DNA from: Entamoeba invadens IP1
Taxonomy: Eukaryota; Evosea; Mastigamoebida; Endamoebidae
DNA: 64,000 nt
Direction: 5' to 3'
NCBI RefSeq assembly: GCF_000330505.1
Contig: NW_004443552.1
Span: 224,474 to 288,473, forward strand
Of the stretch, positions 5,121 to 50,972 are shown in pieces. The translations under genes and the position numbers were made by a program. Numbering within the stretch: the stretch's first letter is position 1; each line of letters opens with the position of its first letter. The notes beneath the pieces were generated by a model. It was not told the DNA's origin. It was given only the letters and a program-made list of their open reading frames with translations, and searched no databases.

Positions 5121-5395
5121 GTACATCTTTTGTGGTCGTTCTTCAGACTTCTCTGTATAACATTTTGAATACCATTTTTATACCCATTTGTTTTATAAAA
5201 ATTATTTTTTTATATATTTTGTAATAAAATGGTATTTAAAAAATAACAATTTAAATAACATTTTCCCAAAAAAACATTTTAAAAACATTTATTTAAACAA
5301 TTCTTGAACGAAGAATAACATTTTAAATAACATTTTAACAAACAAGTGATTTAAAAAACGAAAAACATTTTTAATAGCAATTTGTAAACCAACAG

Positions 5396-8300
5396 TTACT
5401 TGATGAGTGTTATCTTGAATTTGTAGAAGTCTGCGACCTCTTTGATGGCGAATTGTTCTTCTAAAATTTGCGAATACCGCTCGTAAACATCTTTGCAGAT
5501 GTCACCGAAAGTGGTGTAATTTTTGGGACTCTCGAAAACGACGGTTTTCATGTTAAAAGACACATCAGTGGTAAAGGTGGCGATTTTCTCTGAGAGGATG
5601 ACATCGGCCAAAAGTGCGGCGAGTTGCACGAATTTTCCATAAAAGAGTACACGGACGGCATCGATGAAGCCGCCTATCTTCATTAGGTTTATAGCCGCCG
5701 TGACGTAGTGGCCTTTACCTATTTGTTGGACGATCCAAGGGATATATATGATGGTCATAATTTTGTTGAGGGGCATATGAATAGTCGATGCGTGTACTGC
5801 TTCAAAGACCTTTCCTGTCTGAATCATTAATTGACAGGCGGATTGATAGTTGCCAAGATTCTCTAAGACTCTTACCGCCTCTTCTTCACGCCGAGTGTCT
5901 AATAACTCATTCACGACATTCTCGATGGTTTTGTCTAACTCTTCTGGGTATGTGGTCAAGGATAAAAGTATCGCCTTAAGCCCATATTCGATTTTTTGAG
6001 TCTTTTTAAGCATGTCCATGTATTGCCCGATGATCGTAGACTTGCGCCCAAAGATCAGTTGTAACTCATTCAATTTGATGTTCTTTTCTATGTCACTCAA
6101 TTCCGTGTCGTCCTTCATCGAAAGACCATATTTCTCCATTCGCATTTCTTCGGTGTCTGCTATTAAAGACGTGTTAATAAATAACTCCGGGTATAACCCT
6201 GGTGGCGGATGTGGTATTTCAATGACATGTGGAATTGATTTCACGCGTGTAGTTGTAGCGACGTCTTGTAAATTAGTGTGATTAGATTCATCTTTTATAA
6301 TGGTTTGATACTTCTGTGCATCGTCACGGAGTTTCTATAAAGTTAGTAATATAATAATATATTATAATTATATTATAATACTAATATAATTATAGTATAT
6401 TATAATAATATATTATAATTATAGTATATTATTAATTAATGTATGAAAGAAGAACAAACGAAGACCATAATGTACTTCTTTACATATCCCCAGAACTGTA
6501 CATATTGTGGGAATTTAAATAATTCTGCCACTGCAATGAACAAGTCGTTGAGTGAAGAATCGACTTTAGTAATGATTTCTTTATATAGTATTAATTCATT
6601 TTTCATCGTGATACTCTCAAGCCATTTACTTAATTCACAGATAGGTCTTCTATCGAAATTTTCTGCTATATTAGTGGAGTTAAAATACTTTCTCAGTGTC
6701 ACAGAGAAAGAACTATCATCGAAGAATCCATGGAACATTAAAGTCATTGCCTTTCTAAAATTGAGACCGGTGTGTAAATGGAGAGGTGTTGCAATGAGTG
6801 TGCCTTCGTTTGCCTCTTTCTCCAACTCCTTTGAAAACGTCATAATTTGTCGCACATGAGTTAAAACGACGGGGATGTTTCCTTTCACCCAACACATTGA
6901 TAACGTCTTCAACCGACGTTGTTGCATGAAGACGTTGAAGTCATTTCGAAGATATCCGGCTTGACTCGAATAGTCATAGATATAACAGTTTTGCTTCTCC
7001 GTCATCAACGCAATCAATTTGTTCCCTTCAACAGGACATGCCCGGATGTTGACTATTTTCTCACCTAAAATGACTCGTTTGTCGCACGTCTCGACGTTGT
7101 TCCTCAACAGTTGCGACAACGTGACAAAGTGCACGACATTTTTGACGTCGACAAAGACAAAAGCCGTTTGCGACAAGTTTGCGAGGAACCGGAGTTTACA
7201 GGGGTGCGTGTAAATCGGGCGAATGTTCACTTCAAATTTGGACAATGTCACAATCAAAATGTCTTTGTCTCTCGAACACAAAAACGACGACTCCGTTTGT
7301 GTGATTTTCACTGCAATGGTCGACGACACGGAGATCTCTAACACTCGTTTGGGGCCACTTTTGTTATCACTCTTGTTCTCCCAAAACTGCAATTTGGTAC
7401 TAAATTGGAACACCACAATCGCCCCGTTCGTCGAGATCACAACGTCACACAATTTCTCTTTATTCGACGTAAACAAGTCATTAGGAAAGACCGAGTTCTC
7501 CCGTTTACTTGAAAACCGCACCACGCGATTTTCAAAGAAGTCTCCGGAGTGTGAGGTCTTTGGGTGCGACACAACTCCATACACAAATATTGCGTCGGGT
7601 GCCGTTGTGATCCCAAGGACAGGACATCCAATCGACTGCACATTCGTTACACTGATTTTTTGAGAGTCGACGTCCATGAAGAAGACGTCGCCATTCTCCG
7701 TACCAACACAAAGAGTGTTTTCATTATAAGTTGTAAGGGTGGAGCTCTGACATGAGAAGGAAGTGTCTGAAAGGGATGTATTGAAGCTTGACTTGTCTCC
7801 GTGTAAGATGCCGAGGGAACCATTTTCGAGTTGCAAACAAATGTCGTTTGACATTGGATCTCTGATTAAATGAAAGAGGGGAGGAAGGACTTTAGTTAAG
7901 ACTGCAATAGCTGGTGTATCAAAAGAAAGATTATTTAAGTCGATTCGATACTGGGACAATGTATGGTTCTCACTAAAGACATTCATTGTAGTCTCATCCG
8001 TTGAAAACGAGAAGTTGAGAGGTGGAGGGAGTAACCCAAGAGACCCGATGGCTTGCGCCAAAACTGTGTCAAACACAACTAACTCCGTCGACGACAACAC
8101 AAAAAGGCGTTGTGGCGATTTCGCAAATTTGATTGAACGTACGACTAACTTGTCTTGTTTTGAACTTTTCACGACGTCGGGGGTTGAGTAGATTTCCGTT
8201 GCAGTGACTTGTTTAGTAGACAATAAAAACACGTTGTCTCTTGTTGCAGCTGCGATTTGGTCGGAGTCATACGGGTCTTGTTCAAAGTAAAAGGCGTTTT

Positions 8301-26382: not shown

Positions 26383-27609
26383 ATGAAGCAAACGTTAGAG
26401 AGCGTGTTGGGTAATTTGCTCGACGACGGAGACGTCCAGGAGAAGACGTCGTGCGACATAGAGAAGTTCATGCACGCGGACATGAGTTCTCCGAAGGAGG
26501 GTTTGAGTCGGCCTGATGGTGAAGAGAACTCGGAGGGGTATGATGTCTTCCTTCAAAGGTATTTCAAGACAAGTGACGACGACAAACCACCCCAACCACA
26601 AAACATTTCACTCGCGACACCCTCCAAAAGATTCCACCAACAATTCAAAGAAGACTATTTGACACTGTCACAAGACCAATCGGGCAGTAGGGTTGTCCAA
26701 CACAAAATAGAAACTTCAACATCTGACAGAGATGCTATCTTCGATGGTATTGAAGCCGAGGCTGTTCACTTGTCTAAAGATGTCTTTGCCAATTATGTCA
26801 TCCAGAAACTCTTTGAATTTGGGACGGTCTGGCAAAAGAGCCAACTGACTAAGCGCTTAACTGGCTGTTTTGTCGAGTTATCACTGCATATGTACGGCTG
26901 TCGAGTTGTCCAGAAAGCAATTGAATTTGTCGACGATATCGACAAGCGGACGATCTTTAATGAAATCGAAGAGAATATAGTAGCCTGCATTCAAGATCAG
27001 AACGGCAACCATGTCATTCAAAAGTGTGTGGAGAAGGGGGATACCCGTATCATCGACGCGATTATTTCCGCGTTTCAAGGTCGTGTCTTGGCGTTTTCTC
27101 AACACCCATACGGGTGTCGAGTCATTCAAAGAATTCTCGAGAAGATCCCAACAGAGAAGAGTTACCCTTTACTCCAAGAGATCCTTCCAAATACTTTAGA
27201 GTTGTCCAAAGACCAATACGGCAACTATGTAATCCAATACATTGTAGAGAGATGTCCGACGGAGAGGACAAAAATCCGTAGAGCTCTTCAAGGCAGTATT
27301 GCCGAGCTATCGATGCAGAAGTATAGCTCTAATGTGATCGAGAAGTGCTTCATGTGTGCGAACGCTAAAGGACGACAGGAGATGCTCAAAGAGATCTATG
27401 GGACCAAACGGGAAGGAACACCATTACTTATGATGATGAGGGACCAATATGCGAACTACGTCGTCCAGAAAATCATCGAGAATGTCTCCGACACCGAACG
27501 AGAGTTCATGGTCAACAACGTCGTCCTCCCACAAATTTCGTCGCTCAGAAAAGTTCCGTACGCTAAGCACATTTTGGTCTTGTTGCAGAACTACGGTGTT
27601 GATGTGTAA
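26383..27609 (+). CDS. Pumilio/PUF-family RNA-binding protein
   Basis: A 408-residue protein whose last ~330 residues form a complete PUM-HD of eight repeats. PUF proteins bind 3' UTRs and repress or destabilise mRNAs. RNA-contact triplets can be read from repeats 1 to 8: SRxxQ, NYxxQ, CRxxQ, NHxxQ, CRxxQ, NYxxQ, SNxxE, NYxxQ (for example GSRVVQHKI, ANYVIQKLF, SSNVIEKCF, ANYVVQKII). By the established PUF code these specify A, U, A, U, A, U, G, U, so the predicted target 5' to 3' is UGUAUAUA, the classical Pumilio element. The N-terminal ~85 residues are acidic and probably disordered. No intron. Confidence 0.94.
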   Translation: MKQTLESVLGNLLDDGDVQEKTSCDIEKFMHADMSSPKEGLSRPDGEENSEGYDVFLQRYFKTSDDDKPPQPQNISLATPSKRFHQQFKEDYLTLSQDQSGSRVVQHKIETSTSDRDAIFDGIEAEAVHLSKDVFANYVIQKLFEFGTVWQKSQLTKRLTGCFVELSLHMYGCRVVQKAIEFVDDIDKRTIFNEIEENIVACIQDQNGNHVIQKCVEKGDTRIIDAIISAFQGRVLAFSQHPYGCRVIQRILEKIPTEKSYPLLQEILPNTLELSKDQYGNYVIQYIVERCPTERTKIRRALQGSIAELSMQKYSSNVIEKCFMCANAKGRQEMLKEIYGTKREGTPLLMMMRDQYANYVVQKIIENVSDTEREFMVNNVVLPQISSLRKVPYAKHILVLLQNYGVDV

Positions 27610-32505: not shown

Positions 32506-33207
32506 ATGAGTTGTGGGAAGGAGTGTAAGAAGGAAGAAAAGAAGGAGTTTTGCTGCATGAAGCAGGAGATGGTCTGCCCTATAAAAAGAGCTTATGGGAA
32601 GTTTTTGAACAAGTTTGAGAAAGCTTCTATTGGACATCAAGCCCCACTCTTTAAGGCAAAATGTTTCTGTCCGAAGGGAACACTGACTGAATTCAATTTG
32701 GAAGATTTTAAAGGCAAATTTGTAGTCTTGTTGTTCTACCCACTTGATTGGACTTTTGTCTGCCCAACGGAGATGTTGGGATATTCGAAACTTGCCGAAG
32801 AAATGAAGGATGTCCAATTTGTTGGCATTTCTGTTGATTCCGTCTTCACACACAAAGCATGGTGCGACGCTCCAAAAGAAATTGGAGGCATTGGAAAGCT
32901 TGCCTTCCCACTTGTTTCCGATATCAAGAAATGTATTTCAATCAAGTACAATATGTTGAACATCGACGAAGGAATTGCAAGAAGAGGGTATGTCATTATC
33001 GACGACAAAGGCCTTGTGAGATATACTCAAACCAATGACGATGGTATTGGAAGAAACACTGAAGAGACTAAGAGAATCATTGAGGCAATTAAGTTCTCTG
33101 ATAAGCATGGTGATGTCTGTCCATTGAACTGGGTTCCGGGAAAAGATACTATGAAGCCGACTCCAGATTCCATGGTGGAGTATCTTAAAAAGCATCATCA
33201 AAAATAA
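32506..33207 (+). CDS. 2-Cys peroxiredoxin with Cys/Lys-rich N-terminus (Entamoeba 29-kDa antigen type)
   Basis: A 233-residue thiol peroxidase reducing hydrogen peroxide and organic peroxides. The peroxidatic Cys86 lies in DWTFVCPTEM and the resolving Cys205 in GDVCPLNW. The Arg and Thr of the active site are in the expected places (PLDWTF, GIARRGYV). The N-terminal ~40 residues add seven cysteines among lysines (CGKECKKEEKKEFCC), the hallmark of the Entamoeba 29-kDa surface antigen peroxiredoxin, an abundant antioxidant and virulence-linked protein in E. histolytica. This extension strongly supports the genus assignment. It is probably reduced by a thioredoxin. Confidence 0.95.
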   Translation: MSCGKECKKEEKKEFCCMKQEMVCPIKRAYGKFLNKFEKASIGHQAPLFKAKCFCPKGTLTEFNLEDFKGKFVVLLFYPLDWTFVCPTEMLGYSKLAEEMKDVQFVGISVDSVFTHKAWCDAPKEIGGIGKLAFPLVSDIKKCISIKYNMLNIDEGIARRGYVIIDDKGLVRYTQTNDDGIGRNTEETKRIIEAIKFSDKHGDVCPLNWVPGKDTMKPTPDSMVEYLKKHHQK

Positions 33208-46387: not shown

Positions 46388-47441
46388 ATAAATTAATTTA
46401 ATAAAGCATAATTTGAATTAATATTTAAAAAAAAGATAAAGATTTTGAAATAATAATTGAATCAACGTAAAAAGTCTTAAGATAACTTAAATTTAAAAAT
46501 GTCAAAGATCAACATAAATAAACAAAGAAAAAAATAATATATTAATATGCAATAAATACAAAATAAATAAAAAATAAAAATATTAAATAAACAATACAAT
46601 TAAAATATATATATTTAAAAAATATATTTAAAATTATTATATAACCACCTCTTGTACAATTTCTACTTAACTACCTCTTTGTACATTTTTTTATTTTCTC
46701 TTTTCATTTTCTTCGTTTCCATTTACTTTTTGTTTATTATTAATTTTGTTTATACTTTTTTCGACCTTATATATTGTTTTTTCTGTTTAATTTTCTTTAT
46801 TTCAATTTTATACAATTGTCAAACATTTGATGTATAACCAATTTTCAATTCTGTATTTTTCAATTCTGTATTTATAAGTTTATTGTTGTCAAAATTCAAA
46901 TTTTGTTATTTTTTATCTCCTTATATTTTTTTTAAATTTATTATTTTTTATAAATTTTATAATAAAAAATATATTCAATTTATCTTTATGTAAAGTCAAA
47001 AAGGTGTTTTTTTCCTATTTATTCACAAATCTTTAAAAAAGATAAATATTTCTCCGTTAAAACGGTGATATTTTTTTCCTGTTTGATAATTGTTTTATAC
47101 ATAAGCAACAACAATACTATTAATAGTTTAAAATTATTGTAATTATTTCTAATATTACAAAATTTGTTATATTTTGCAAACTTATGTTTTTACTCAAATT
47201 ACAAAATGGAAAAAATATAATCATAATCAATTAGTTGGTAATAAAAAATAAGTCTTTTACACAGATAAAGATTAAAATTAAATTATTGATTCTTCATATC
47301 AATACACATTGAATTTAAATTAGTTATGTATTTACATATCAACTTTTTTAAAAAAATTTTAAAAATTTTTAATTTAATTATTTAAATATAATTATATATA
47401 ATATTTTTTCGTTCATAATTGAACAAAAAATGAACCAAATA

Positions 47442-47635
47442 CAGTCGATACTCTATCGGATTGGAATAATGGGAAAATGGTTTTTCCCAAGGATTGGAAA
47501 ATAAAAAGAAAATTTTATACTAATTATACGGGTTTTATTTATAAAATCGGATTGGAACAAGTTTTGATTGGATAAAAAACCAAATCCGATAGAATACCAA
47601 TCCGATAGAAGTCCAATCCGATAGAGTATCGACTG
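47442..47635. mobile_element. Pogo/Tigger-type MITE with perfect 24-bp TIRs
   Basis: A 194-bp element with perfect 24-bp terminal inverted repeats beginning CAGTCGATACTCTATCGG, flanked by TA on both sides (47440-47441, 47636-47637), the target duplication of Tc1/mariner-pogo elements. CAGTCGA..CTC ends are typical of pogo/Tigger families. The right arm carries three copies of CCAATCCGATAGA spaced 19-20 bp apart, and the left arm has further GGATTGGA copies, likely subterminal transposase-binding repeats. No coding capacity. Its ends differ from those of the transposase-bearing element 600 bp to the right, so that element is not its obvious source. Confidence 0.88.
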
Positions 47636-48261
47636 TAATATATAAAGTCATTTTGGAAACCTTATTTGTTCTGTAAATTTTATTTATAAATTTTGATGAT
47701 TGTTTTTTTCCTTTTTTAACAACTCAAAAAATACATTCAAAAACAATAAAAAACAACAAATTCGATATTCAACGATTCACGCTTAAAACAAAGAAGTGAT
47801 GCTTTTTTACAACAAAAAATAAAAAAAAGATTATTTGGTACTCGAAATATACAAAAAAACAAATTTGATATGTTCAAAAACATGTTTGCGAACACGCATT
47901 AAACGAATACAACTATGAATCAAACAACTACAACTAAAAATATAAAACAATGAAAACCAAATAAACCAGATGCATCGTGAGCGTCAACTAAAGAAAGTGA
48001 TGTTGTTTCACACCGCAATTTATTTAGTCATTGATTTTCGAAAAGACTTTTAAACTATCCTCTTAGTTTGTTAGCAACATTTTCATGTTATTTTGTTCAT
48101 AATTTTTTTTCTAATCAATTGTATTTATTCACTTTTAGATGTTTAAAAATCATCGATCAAATGGTCTAAACTTTATTTATGTTATTGGTTGTGTTAGTGG
48201 TTATTTGGTTTTGGAATAGGTATATTAATTATAATTTTTTTTATTTTTATTTTTACTTATA

Positions 48262-50377
48262 TAGTCACCCGCTAAAAGCAATGAAAACACGACAAATGGT
48301 GTAAAGAAACTATAATTTATTATTTTATACTATAATTATAAAAAACATTAAGAATAACATAAATAACATGAAAAAGTCAAAAAAATAAGAAAAAATTAAT
48401 CATTTTTTGTCAAGTTTTTTGAATGGTTTAGAAGACAACGGCAATCTTAAAATTGTGGTTTCTTTTTTCCTTATCTTATTTTGGGTTTTTAATGCTTTTT
48501 TTACTTCCCTTTCTTTTCTTTTAACTTCAATTTGGAAAGGGAGTAATACTGTCTTTCTTTTCTTTTGAAGCAACGGAATTGGTTTTGGAATAAACTGTTT
48601 GAACAATTCTCTGTATTGGGGCGTTTTTATAAATTTACAATGTTCGATGGATACACGACACTTTGGAAGCGTTTTGTCAATCCAGTTGACTATTCCTGCT
48701 TGTTTAAAAGCAATAATATTAAAAGGAGGTGTTGTAACCGCAAAGAAAGAATCCACCAATATCATCAACTCTCTTAGTCTGTTTCCGAGTTCAATATTGT
48801 AAAAATCTGGTTTTTTATCTTCCCAAAATAAATTACCATCCACATCTTCCTTTTCGACTTCTTCTTGAAAAAGCAAATTTACAAAACTGTCGTTCGCTTT
48901 TAAAGAAGACATTCTTCTTTTAAGCCTACCAAATATCCCCAAATCAAGAACTTGAAGGAAATGAGAAGCATGTGGAGTTAATCTAACAAGAGTTATGTTA
49001 TTTTCAGCGAGTAACAATTCAATAATCGAGGAACTGTGGCTTTTTGCATTATCCCACACTAGACAAGCTCTAAGATCGGACATTTTTATTTCAATTCCAA
49101 GCGCATTCATTTCATTTTTAATTTCAACACGTTTTCTATTAATATAATCAAGCAGAACAGTTCTAATCCAGTCTTCACAAATTTCACGCGTAATGAATCC
49201 AGACACACTGTATCGGAATAAAACATTATTTTCCGTTAGTCCATTACACCTATATTCATTTGGAATGGAACAAACGGGCAAAATAACAGTTGGTTTCAGA
49301 GTTGAACCATCAGCAGCAACTGCGGCAATTAAAGTGCAATGTCGTTCATCCCTCTCTTGTCGACAATACACAAATTTCATTTCATAATTCATTGGAACAA
49401 AACAGTGTCCATCCTTAGAATCTGCTCTTGGACTGTAACCCATTTCATCCATGTTAACAACAAGACCAGAAAAACAATTATCTACACTATTTTGGAGAGT
49501 CAAAAAGTAATTTAACACATCAATGGGATTTACATCGAATCGTTTTTCTGCAAGTTGTTTGCACGTTACAAGTTTTAACCCATGTCTTTCTGCCCAACGA
49601 ATTGAAGATTCTTTTGTGGTATTCAAGTTGCATTCATCAACAAAAAGACTCCAAACATAATCTGTTGTTACTGCTTTGTTTTTTAGTAATCTTCTGGATA
49701 TTTTAGAACAAAGTATATCAGATTGTTTAAAAGAAATGTTATATTTACTTTTAGATTCATTACATGTATAACACGCTTCTTCTTCTTGTTTAATAACAGC
49801 GGAAATTCTTGGCTCATTCACTTTGAAAATTTTTGCCAGATCTTTTTGAATTATTTTCAGTCTCAGAAAACCATCCAAAACATTGATATTGTAGTATGGG
49901 TTGATAACACTTATAAACACTTTTGCGGATTCCAAACTTTCCATATTTTTATTGAACACCTTAATATTTTTATAAGCAATATAAATTTGTAACCGTTTAT
50001 ATTGACTGTAGCAAAATTCTTTTTGTTTTAACAGAAACAGCACAAACAAATAACACAATGAATCTGATACATCCAAAGAATTTGCCGAATCGTCGAAAGC
50101 CATCGCAGGTGCAGGTTTGGTCTTTTTGTTTTCTGGTATTGTCCAGGTAAGTGTATTTGTACTGCATTTTTCCATTAATAATTGATTTTCAGTTCACCTT
50201 TAATCTATTTTGACAATGTTTTAGAATAAAGTAAATTTATAGTTAATTTTGAAATACTTGCAATATAAAGAAAAAAATGACAAATTGAAACATAATCTAA
50301 AATCATAATTTCTAAAAACTATAAAATGGTTTCTTTAGACCATTTGTCGTAAATTTACACCTTTTAGCGGGTGACTA
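48262..50377. mobile_element. Complete DDE DNA transposon (pogo/Tigger-like) with intact transposase
   Basis: A 2116-bp element bounded by inverted repeats of about 50 bp: the left end reads TAGTCACCCGCTAAAAG and the right end is its complement. A second matching block (ACGACAAATGGT, then TAAAGAAAC) follows a short diverged segment in each end. TA dinucleotides flank the element, as expected for Tc1/mariner-type insertion. It encodes one transposase on the minus strand occupying most of its length. Intact ends and an intact gene mean it could be autonomous. Its right end is 283 bp before the metallothionein-like start codon. Confidence 0.88.
48400..50175 (-). CDS. DDE superfamily transposase (pogo/Tigger-like), intact
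   Basis: 591 residues with no break. The N-terminal half has a helix-turn-helix of the CENP-B/pogo kind (IIQKDLAKIFKVNEPRISAVI) and a second DNA-binding-like region (ESSIRWAERHGLKLVT). The catalytic core has the first Asp in VVNMDEMGYSPRA, the second in CLVWDNAKSHSS and a third in FLQVLDLGIFG, 35 residues between the last two, so a DDD triad of the pogo type. The HASHFLQVLD block is diagnostic of the DDE_1 family. The C-terminus is basic (KRKTVLLPF, KKETTILRLP). It catalyses cut-and-paste transposition. DNA transposons of this class are known from E. invadens and E. moshkovskii. Confidence 0.92.
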   Translation of the reverse strand: MEKCSTNTLTWTIPENKKTKPAPAMAFDDSANSLDVSDSLCYLFVLFLLKQKEFCYSQYKRLQIYIAYKNIKVFNKNMESLESAKVFISVINPYYNINVLDGFLRLKIIQKDLAKIFKVNEPRISAVIKQEEEACYTCNESKSKYNISFKQSDILCSKISRRLLKNKAVTTDYVWSLFVDECNLNTTKESSIRWAERHGLKLVTCKQLAEKRFDVNPIDVLNYFLTLQNSVDNCFSGLVVNMDEMGYSPRADSKDGHCFVPMNYEMKFVYCRQERDERHCTLIAAVAADGSTLKPTVILPVCSIPNEYRCNGLTENNVLFRYSVSGFITREICEDWIRTVLLDYINRKRVEIKNEMNALGIEIKMSDLRACLVWDNAKSHSSSIIELLLAENNITLVRLTPHASHFLQVLDLGIFGRLKRRMSSLKANDSFVNLLFQEEVEKEDVDGNLFWEDKKPDFYNIELGNRLRELMILVDSFFAVTTPPFNIIAFKQAGIVNWIDKTLPKCRVSIEHCKFIKTPQYRELFKQFIPKPIPLLQKKRKTVLLPFQIEVKRKEREVKKALKTQNKIRKKETTILRLPLSSKPFKKLDKK

Positions 50378-50536
50378 TAATAAAAAAATATTTTTTTTAC
50401 ACATTTTTACTTTGATTTGATGTTTAGTTGTATTATTACTATTATATTATTAAAATAATAACTATTAAATTATAGTATATTGTATTATAACAATATTACT
50501 TACCAAATAACTATACTTTAATAAATAACAATTTGA

Positions 50537-50637
50537 CCAATCAGAACGAAAATAAATTGACCCATCCACGTGGATGGACCACAAAAGTTCAAATGATTGG
50601 CCAGTTTGATTTTGAAAGCCAGCGACGGGTATATAAG
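50537..50637 (+). promoter_or_regulatory. Symmetric promoter of the metallothionein-like gene
   Basis: A perfect 16-bp palindrome CCATCCACGTGGATGG (50562-50577), containing an E-box CACGTG, is flanked by an inverted pair of CCAAT-type elements: CCAATCA at 50537-50543 and TGATTGG at 50594-50600, whose midpoint is within about 1 bp of the palindrome centre. A TATA-like GTATATAAG follows at 50629-50637, 23 bp before the ATG. The arrangement is seen directly; its role as an operator for a dimeric regulator is inference. Confidence 0.65.
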
Positions 50638-50660
50638 ACGCTCTGAATTGCAAAACGACA

Positions 50661-50972
50661 ATGAGTTGTGGGTGTGAGAAGAAGTGCAAATGTGAAGGCA
50701 GTGAAGCGATCATTTGTGGGTGCTGCTGCCAAGATGGGAAGTGCTGCTGTGACTTCAAATGCAAATGTGGTGCTGAAGGGAAGTGTGAGTGCTGCTGTTG
50801 CTGCAAAGAGGGGAAGTGCCAATGCAAGACATTTGCAACTGGGATGACCATCACCTGTGAGTGTTGCTGTGAGGGTTGCAAGTGCACATGTGAGTGCAAG
50901 TGTGGGGAGAAGAAGGTGTGCCAATGCCAGAAAGAGGCATCAAGTGGGTGTTGTTGTGGAAAGACATGCTAA
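50661..50972 (+). CDS. Metallothionein-like cysteine-rich protein
   Basis: 103 residues, 36 of them Cys (35%), in CC, CCC, CxC and one CCCCC run, separated mostly by Lys, Glu, Gly and Gln (for example CGCEKKCKCEG, GKCECCCCCKEGKCQCK). There is no His and almost no aromatic residue apart from two Phe. This composition is that of a metallothionein binding many Zn, Cu or Cd ions through thiolate clusters. It shows two Cys-dense domains (residues 3-55 and 66-103) joined by a Cys-free linker (KTFATGMTIT), as in two-domain metallothioneins. It has no signal peptide, so it is cytosolic. Sequence similarity to known metallothionein classes cannot be judged by eye. The frame is GC-richer than its surroundings and has a well-formed promoter. 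Confidence 0.85.
   Translation: MSCGCEKKCKCEGSEAIICGCCCQDGKCCCDFKCKCGAEGKCECCCCCKEGKCQCKTFATGMTITCECCCEGCKCTCECKCGEKKVCQCQKEASSGCCCGKTC

Follow-up and report, generated by a model that had tools for sequence, protein, structure and literature searches.

A constrained, multi-copy family of metallothionein-like genes in Entamoeba invadens, with a lower-cysteine paralog and a promoter block carrying paired inverted CCAAT boxes

Vertebrate metallothioneins carry 20 Cys in two Cys-rich halves, with CxC and CC motifs, Lys beside Cys, and no His. More broadly, the class has been delimited as proteins of at most 300 amino acids, with 15–35% Cys arranged in CxC, CC, and CCC motifs and less than 10% aromatic residues, and the same source names ciliates as the only microbial eukaryotes in which metallothioneins have been studied in detail (PMC7216689). 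The metallothionein label is nevertheless already known in Entamoeba, as GenBank in November 2019 contained eight Entamoeba proteins with this annotation (PMC7216689, Table 1), and EIN_381500 of E. invadens is annotated as a "cadmium metallothionein precursor" and gives one of the 40 circRNAs that in-silico analysis classed as cyst-specific (PMC9607107). A sequence-only reading of the DNA analyzed here had remarked that no Entamoeba metallothionein is well studied; this stands insofar as no dedicated study could be recognized from titles or the opening of abstracts in the literature searched, but the label itself is not new.

We analyzed a 64,000-nucleotide stretch of the E. invadens genome (the window), in which a metallothionein-like coding sequence (MT) lies downstream of a conserved promoter block and a DNA transposon (Table 1). 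The encoded protein is exactly as described beforehand, with 103 residues, 36 Cys, no His, and a linker without Cys (TFATGMTIT, residues 57–65), which divides the Cys into 21 on its N-terminal and 15 on its C-terminal side. In order, the clusters are CGC, CKC, CGCCC, CCC, CKC, CECCCCC, and CQC before the linker, and CECCC, CKCTCECKC, CQC, CCC, and C after it, amounting to 12 CxC motifs and 12 CC steps, accompanied by 16 Lys. Its size (103 against at most 300 residues), Cys content (36/103, 35.0%, against 15–35%), and aromatic content (2/103 with F, W, Y, and H counted together, both being Phe, against less than 10%) all lie within the published bounds of the class. Its N-terminus, MSCGCEKKCKCEG, reads as lacking any hydrophobic signal-like stretch.

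Table 1. Positions of the features discussed in the text; coordinates without a contig prefix refer to the window.
Feature	Position	Strand	Details
DNA transposon with terminal inverted repeats	48262..50377	-	DDE_1 transposase ORF 48400-50175, Pfam 2.1e-12
Conserved promoter block, about -125 to -1	50536..50660	+	Defined by identity between copies
CCAAT box 1, ACCAATCA, NF-Y-type site	50536..50543	+	CCAATCA at -123/-124 in 7/8 copies
Core GTGGATGGACCACAAAAG between the CCAAT boxes	50570..50587	+	Contains the inverted repeat GTGG-N5-CCAC
CCAAT box 2, inverse (TGATTGGC on +), NF-Y-type site	50594..50601	-	GATTGGC at -66 in 8/8 copies
TATA-like element TATATAA	50630..50636	+	31 bp before ATG, same position in 8/8 copies
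Metallothionein-like CDS	50661..50972	+	ATG to TAA, 103 aa, 36 Cys, two Cys-dense halves
Three 19-Cys, 106-aa paralogs (EIN_064430 type)	C225:156374-156691; C205:182960-183277; C205:31192-31509		Genome search with the MT query

That this open reading frame is not a chance product follows from its Cys fraction, which at 0.33 (measured from stop to stop) is the highest among the 662 open stretches that the window contains at a minimum length of 40 amino acids, the runner-up having 0.17. An antisense open reading frame (50465..50851) overlaps 191 of the 312 bases of the coding sequence; however, the five intact copies described below vary at 4, 1, and 15 sites in codon positions 1, 2, and 3, respectively, of the plus frame, which identifies the plus frame as the constrained one. 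The C/G-rich codons beside AT-rich flanks that had been noted earlier are real (GC 0.50 and GC3 0.57, with 300-base windows nearby dropping to 0.16–0.25), but ordinary among the genes of the window: a ribosomal-looking frame at 1780 has GC 0.49 and GC3 0.59, and a PUF-like frame at 26383 has GC3 0.55 (both named by eye). Thus, the gene is not compositionally foreign.

We searched the 34.98 Mb E. invadens assembly with the MT query at E ≤ 10 (the published assembly is given as 40.9 Mb with 70% A+T, PMC4053983). The 12 resulting rows correspond to eight dispersed MT copies on five contigs (nine rows, one copy being found in two pieces) and three paralogs. Five of the copies are intact (the window copy on C50, C49:348492, C209, C49:14565, and C148:61443) and three are broken, either by an in-frame stop (C107) or by frame shifts (C49:215523 and C148:168289). 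An upstream flank of at least 1 kb, with 82–98% identity depending on the piece, is common to C49:14565, C49:215523, C49:348492, C209, and C148:168289, while the window copy and C107 have flanks in common with each other and C148:61443 carries pieces of both flank groups. Comparing neighboring open reading frames at five MT loci (L010, L011, L012, L014, and L016), we find one of about 1,500 amino acids upstream at L012 and L016, of which only parts are present at L011 and L010, and one of about 190–206 amino acids downstream on the opposite strand at L010, L011, L012, and L014. This pattern of flank sharing indicates that the family spread mainly by segmental duplication. Furthermore, misassembly, which had been named beforehand as grounds for giving up the gene, is very unlikely given eight copies on five contigs with partly different flanks.

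The differences among the intact copies lie mostly at synonymous sites, with Nei–Gojobori dN/dS values of 0.03–0.29 in all ten pairs (dS 0.04–0.36), and Cys is conserved in all five at 35 of the 36 Cys positions. We note, however, that the five pairs involving the stop-bearing C107 copy give similarly low ratios (0.02–0.19), such that a low ratio alone does not establish that a given copy works today. Taking into account also the small counts and the possibility of gene conversion between copies, these values speak for constraint over the history of the family rather than constituting proof for each copy. The MT-like gene is thus a genuine, constrained, multi-copy family, and not the product of chance or misassembly.

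The right end of the DDE_1 transposon lies 284 bp upstream of the MT start codon, outside the conserved promoter block, and the C107 locus has matching flanks without this element. The transposon is a neighbor and not part of the MT unit, and it leaves the promoter block untouched. Six further near-complete genome copies at 99–100% identity point to its recent activity. There are also many shorter relatives (79–88%) with matching ends and part of the middle, resembling internally deleted derivatives. A 198-bp MITE-like insertion with perfect terminal inverted repeats of 25–26 bp occupies window positions 47440-47637 and is likewise absent at the matching C107 locus. At the C148:61443 copy (L014, C148:56597-66596), an insertion at about 5354-7071 with a Tc1/mariner-like transposase frame (identified by eye) lies, relative to the other copies, directly downstream of the 3' block of MT; together with the DDE_1 element of the window, this places a DNA transposon close to two of the eight copies. 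Elsewhere in the window, positions 32506-33207 encode a peroxiredoxin whose N-terminal extension (MSCGKECKKEEKKEFCCMKQEMVC) is rich in Cys and Lys, and whose best PDB match starts only from residue 39.

The three paralogs were reached by the MT query at E values of 5e-6 to 7e-6, although the reverse genome search with a paralog query returned the three paralogs and no MT copy. On comparing the printed sequences, the translation of C205:31192-31509 is letter-identical over 106 amino acids to EIN_064430, a hypothetical protein of E. invadens IP1, which is itself 98% identical to the paralog copy used as a protein query. Pairs of paralogs differ at 8–15 DNA positions, mostly third codon positions, with one or two amino acid changes, so that they also look constrained. 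In an alignment of eight sequences, MT and the paralogs have 15 common Cys columns, and 36 columns are invariant. When sequences were shuffled with Cys held fixed, none of 2000 shuffles reached the observed MT/paralog score of 157 (mean 81, maximum 115), which argues that this homology does not come from Cys alone. EIN_064430 has KCKCGA, M-IT, and CG--KV in common with MT, as well as an upstream CCAATCA box and TATA element, but it differs in having 19 Cys in 106 residues rather than 36 in 103, an identity of only 33–40%, and a single CCAATCA box in place of the inverted pair. Thus, 35%-Cys and 18%-Cys versions of what appears to be one protein coexist in one genome, and with two lineages to compare, either may be the older state.

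Beyond E. invadens, the searches give little. Comparison with the Pfam metallothionein families had been proposed as a check, and here neither MT nor the paralog matched any family at E ≤ 10 in a scan whose HMMER filters drop most weak matches, while the positive controls were recognized (MTT1 at 1.9e-64 by PF07846 and human metallothionein at 5.6e-23 by PF00131). A search of the genome with PF07846 likewise gave no match, with just two sub-threshold matches in the control genomes; the PF00131 result rests on the protein scan, as the corresponding genome search was silent in all control genomes and is not counted. Among PDB sequences at E ≤ 10, there was no relative of MT, the best E value being 3.5. 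Twelve stretches of prokaryotic genomes fitted a pattern, none of which was confirmed. A first search of the protein collection with MT alone yielded six candidates and no match, EIN_064430 included, whereas a profile built in part from the paralogs and run against 5.8 billion proteins yielded 35 candidates of which EIN_064430 alone matched. Both protein searches took candidates of 0.55–1.75 times the query length and would thus overlook any longer gene model. The earlier proposal to search Entamoeba proteins thus returned EIN_064430, and no further relative within this length-limited collection. In these searches the family appears confined to E. invadens, with the collection possibly lacking other Entamoeba proteomes, and the Entamoeba origin suggested earlier is borne out and narrowed to this species by the letter-identical paralog.

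AlphaFold2 models built from the eight sequences show a beta-meander both for MT (mean pLDDT 76, pTM 0.66) and for the paralog (mean pLDDT 64, pTM 0.59), and neither has a match in the PDB at E ≤ 0.001. As both models derive from the same eight sequences, the two folds are not independent. A beta-meander rather than an unstructured chain would speak against the metallothionein reading, but the prediction is weak either way, since little weight attaches to a model that shows a Cys-rich protein in its apo form.

Taken together, composition, cluster pattern, synonymous bias, and the absence of any other recognizable domain uphold the metallothionein-like reading, and MT very probably encodes a small cytosolic metallothionein. 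From the sequence, we infer metal binding, two-domain folding, and a cytosolic location. In such a protein, the 36 Cys thiolates, in CxC/CCC arrays flanking the short linker, would wrap d10 ions such as Zn2+, Cd2+, or Cu+ into metal–thiolate clusters, which would buffer and store metal, with a role as a thiol sink being secondary. Metallothioneins usually contain about 2.75–3 Cys per divalent ion, and MT could on this basis hold about 12–13 such ions.

The best of the alternatives is that MT is a thiol or redox protein, in which the Cys would hold reducing equivalents, sulfur, or Fe–S precursors in an anaerobe, with metal binding being incidental. Such a role would agree with Cys being the conserved residues of MT, with the retention of 15 Cys columns at half the density in the paralog, and with the occurrence in this window (32506-33207) of a peroxiredoxin whose N-terminus is rich in Cys. 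However, the CC, CCC, and CCCCC runs and the CKCTCECKC segment are the usage of a thiolate cluster, and no redox or catalytic domain was recognized by the Pfam scan, making this explanation improbable.

The promoter block offers a separate view of the family. It was compared in five copies (L009, L010, L013, L014, and L016, two of which are broken), and shows 82–94% identity in all ten pairs, as against 26–86% in two blocks farther upstream, where the upper value applies to the window/C107 pair only. The block is kept also between copies with unmatched outer flanks, as in the comparison of the window copy with C49:348492. Between the two CCAAT boxes, GTGGATGG-CCACAA-AG is constant across MT promoters. 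The core motif, allowing up to two mismatches, occurs at nine places in the genome (control, zero), of which eight are the eight MT copies (six exact and two with one mismatch), the ninth being C66:648103 with two mismatches. Similarly, CCAATCA-N40-60-TGATTGG occurs at seven places in the 35 Mb genome (14 rows over both strands; control, zero), all of them MT promoters. Of the 30 open reading frames taken as genes in the window, MT is the only one with CCAATCA no farther than 150 bp from its (putative) start codon, while a bare CCAAT is present in one other; of random 150-bp stretches drawn from outside the MT promoter, 0.4% contain even a single RCCAATCA. These motif counts should be read in light of the fact that the tests were designed after the sequence had been seen. 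Each of the three paralog promoters has a TATA element at -35, preceded by a single CCAATCA at -64 to -75; there is no 8-base word that all five intact MT promoters and all three paralog promoters share.

The retention of the CCAAT boxes between copies (the -66 box in every copy, the -124 box in all but one) makes MT a candidate NF-Y-regulated gene. NF-Y of E. invadens has been reported to bind CCAAT in cyst extracts, NF-YB and NF-YC show stage-specific expression during encystation, and fewer cysts form when NF-YC is silenced (PMC6581852). Expression of MT in the cyst stage is thus a testable prediction and, when also considering the cyst circRNA of EIN_381500, a fair one, albeit not a result. 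The same work finds CCAAT in 354 of 900 cyst-specific promoters, an enrichment that is significant but not exclusive (PMC6581852), and CCAAT alone is common, which counts against a cyst-specific reading of the MT promoter. We advance only tentatively that transcription might start at the TATA element at -31, with NF-Y bound to both CCAAT boxes, and that the family would thereby be raised during encystation.

The CCAAT boxes of the promoter and, for the metallothionein-annotated EIN_381500, its cyst circRNA would also suit a disulfide-rich structural or cyst-wall protein, but this is very unlikely considering that MSCGCEKKCKCEG has no hydrophobic signal-like stretch on direct reading, that runs of adjacent Cys would hardly pair fully as disulfides, and that no lectin or other Pfam domain was found in MT. 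Equally remote is a dying or unexpressed repeat, with copies that are segmental-duplication remnants carried along with neighbors or transposons: although three of the eight copies are broken, pairs with a broken copy also show low dN/dS, flanks of at least 1 kb are duplicated in five copies, and transposons adjoin two, this sits poorly with five intact copies at dN/dS 0.03–0.29 and with a promoter block that is kept where the surroundings diverge.

Returning to the metallothionein reading, we hypothesize, as a rather doubtful extension of it, that MT belongs to the encystation program, with NF-Y acting on the paired inverted CCAAT boxes to fill the cyst with a metal–thiolate store, and that it arose within the Entamoeba lineage from a protein with fewer Cys and possibly a beta-sheet fold, still represented by EIN_064430, through a dense gain of Cys. 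If true, this store would serve at excystation as a reserve of Zn or Cu, or would protect the cell while dormant, and MT would be a metallothionein with a less Cys-rich relative visible in the same genome. An intermediate-Cys paralog beside a multi-copy, constrained family makes the origin of a metallothionein open to study and, should the CCAAT module work as its factor suggests, metal storage would become a testable part of cyst formation, the transmission stage.

EIN_381500 comes from the same species and carries the same label, and it may be one of the MT copies described here, although the search of 5.8 billion proteins with the profile turned up EIN_064430 and no MT of comparable length. 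EIN_064430 itself has no mention in the literature searched. The gene is thus known as a kind but, as a family, essentially undescribed in the literature and databases searched; what is new is its copy number, the decay seen in some copies and the constraint on the family, the paralog with fewer Cys, and the promoter block of about 125 bp with two inverted CCAAT boxes. The paralog and the CCAAT pair raise the family above a routine addition. In comparison with known systems, MT resembles the Cd-metallothioneins of ciliates (PF07846, Tetrahymena MTT1) in being rich in CCC, CC, and CxC and in coming from a unicellular eukaryote, but it does not match the PF07846 profile, and pairwise BLASTP gives an E value of 0.19. 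With the vertebrate metallothioneins (PF00131), it shares two Cys-rich halves, CxC and CC motifs, Lys beside Cys, and the absence of His, but it does not match the PF00131 profile, and it has CCC and CCCCC runs and 36 Cys as compared to their 20.
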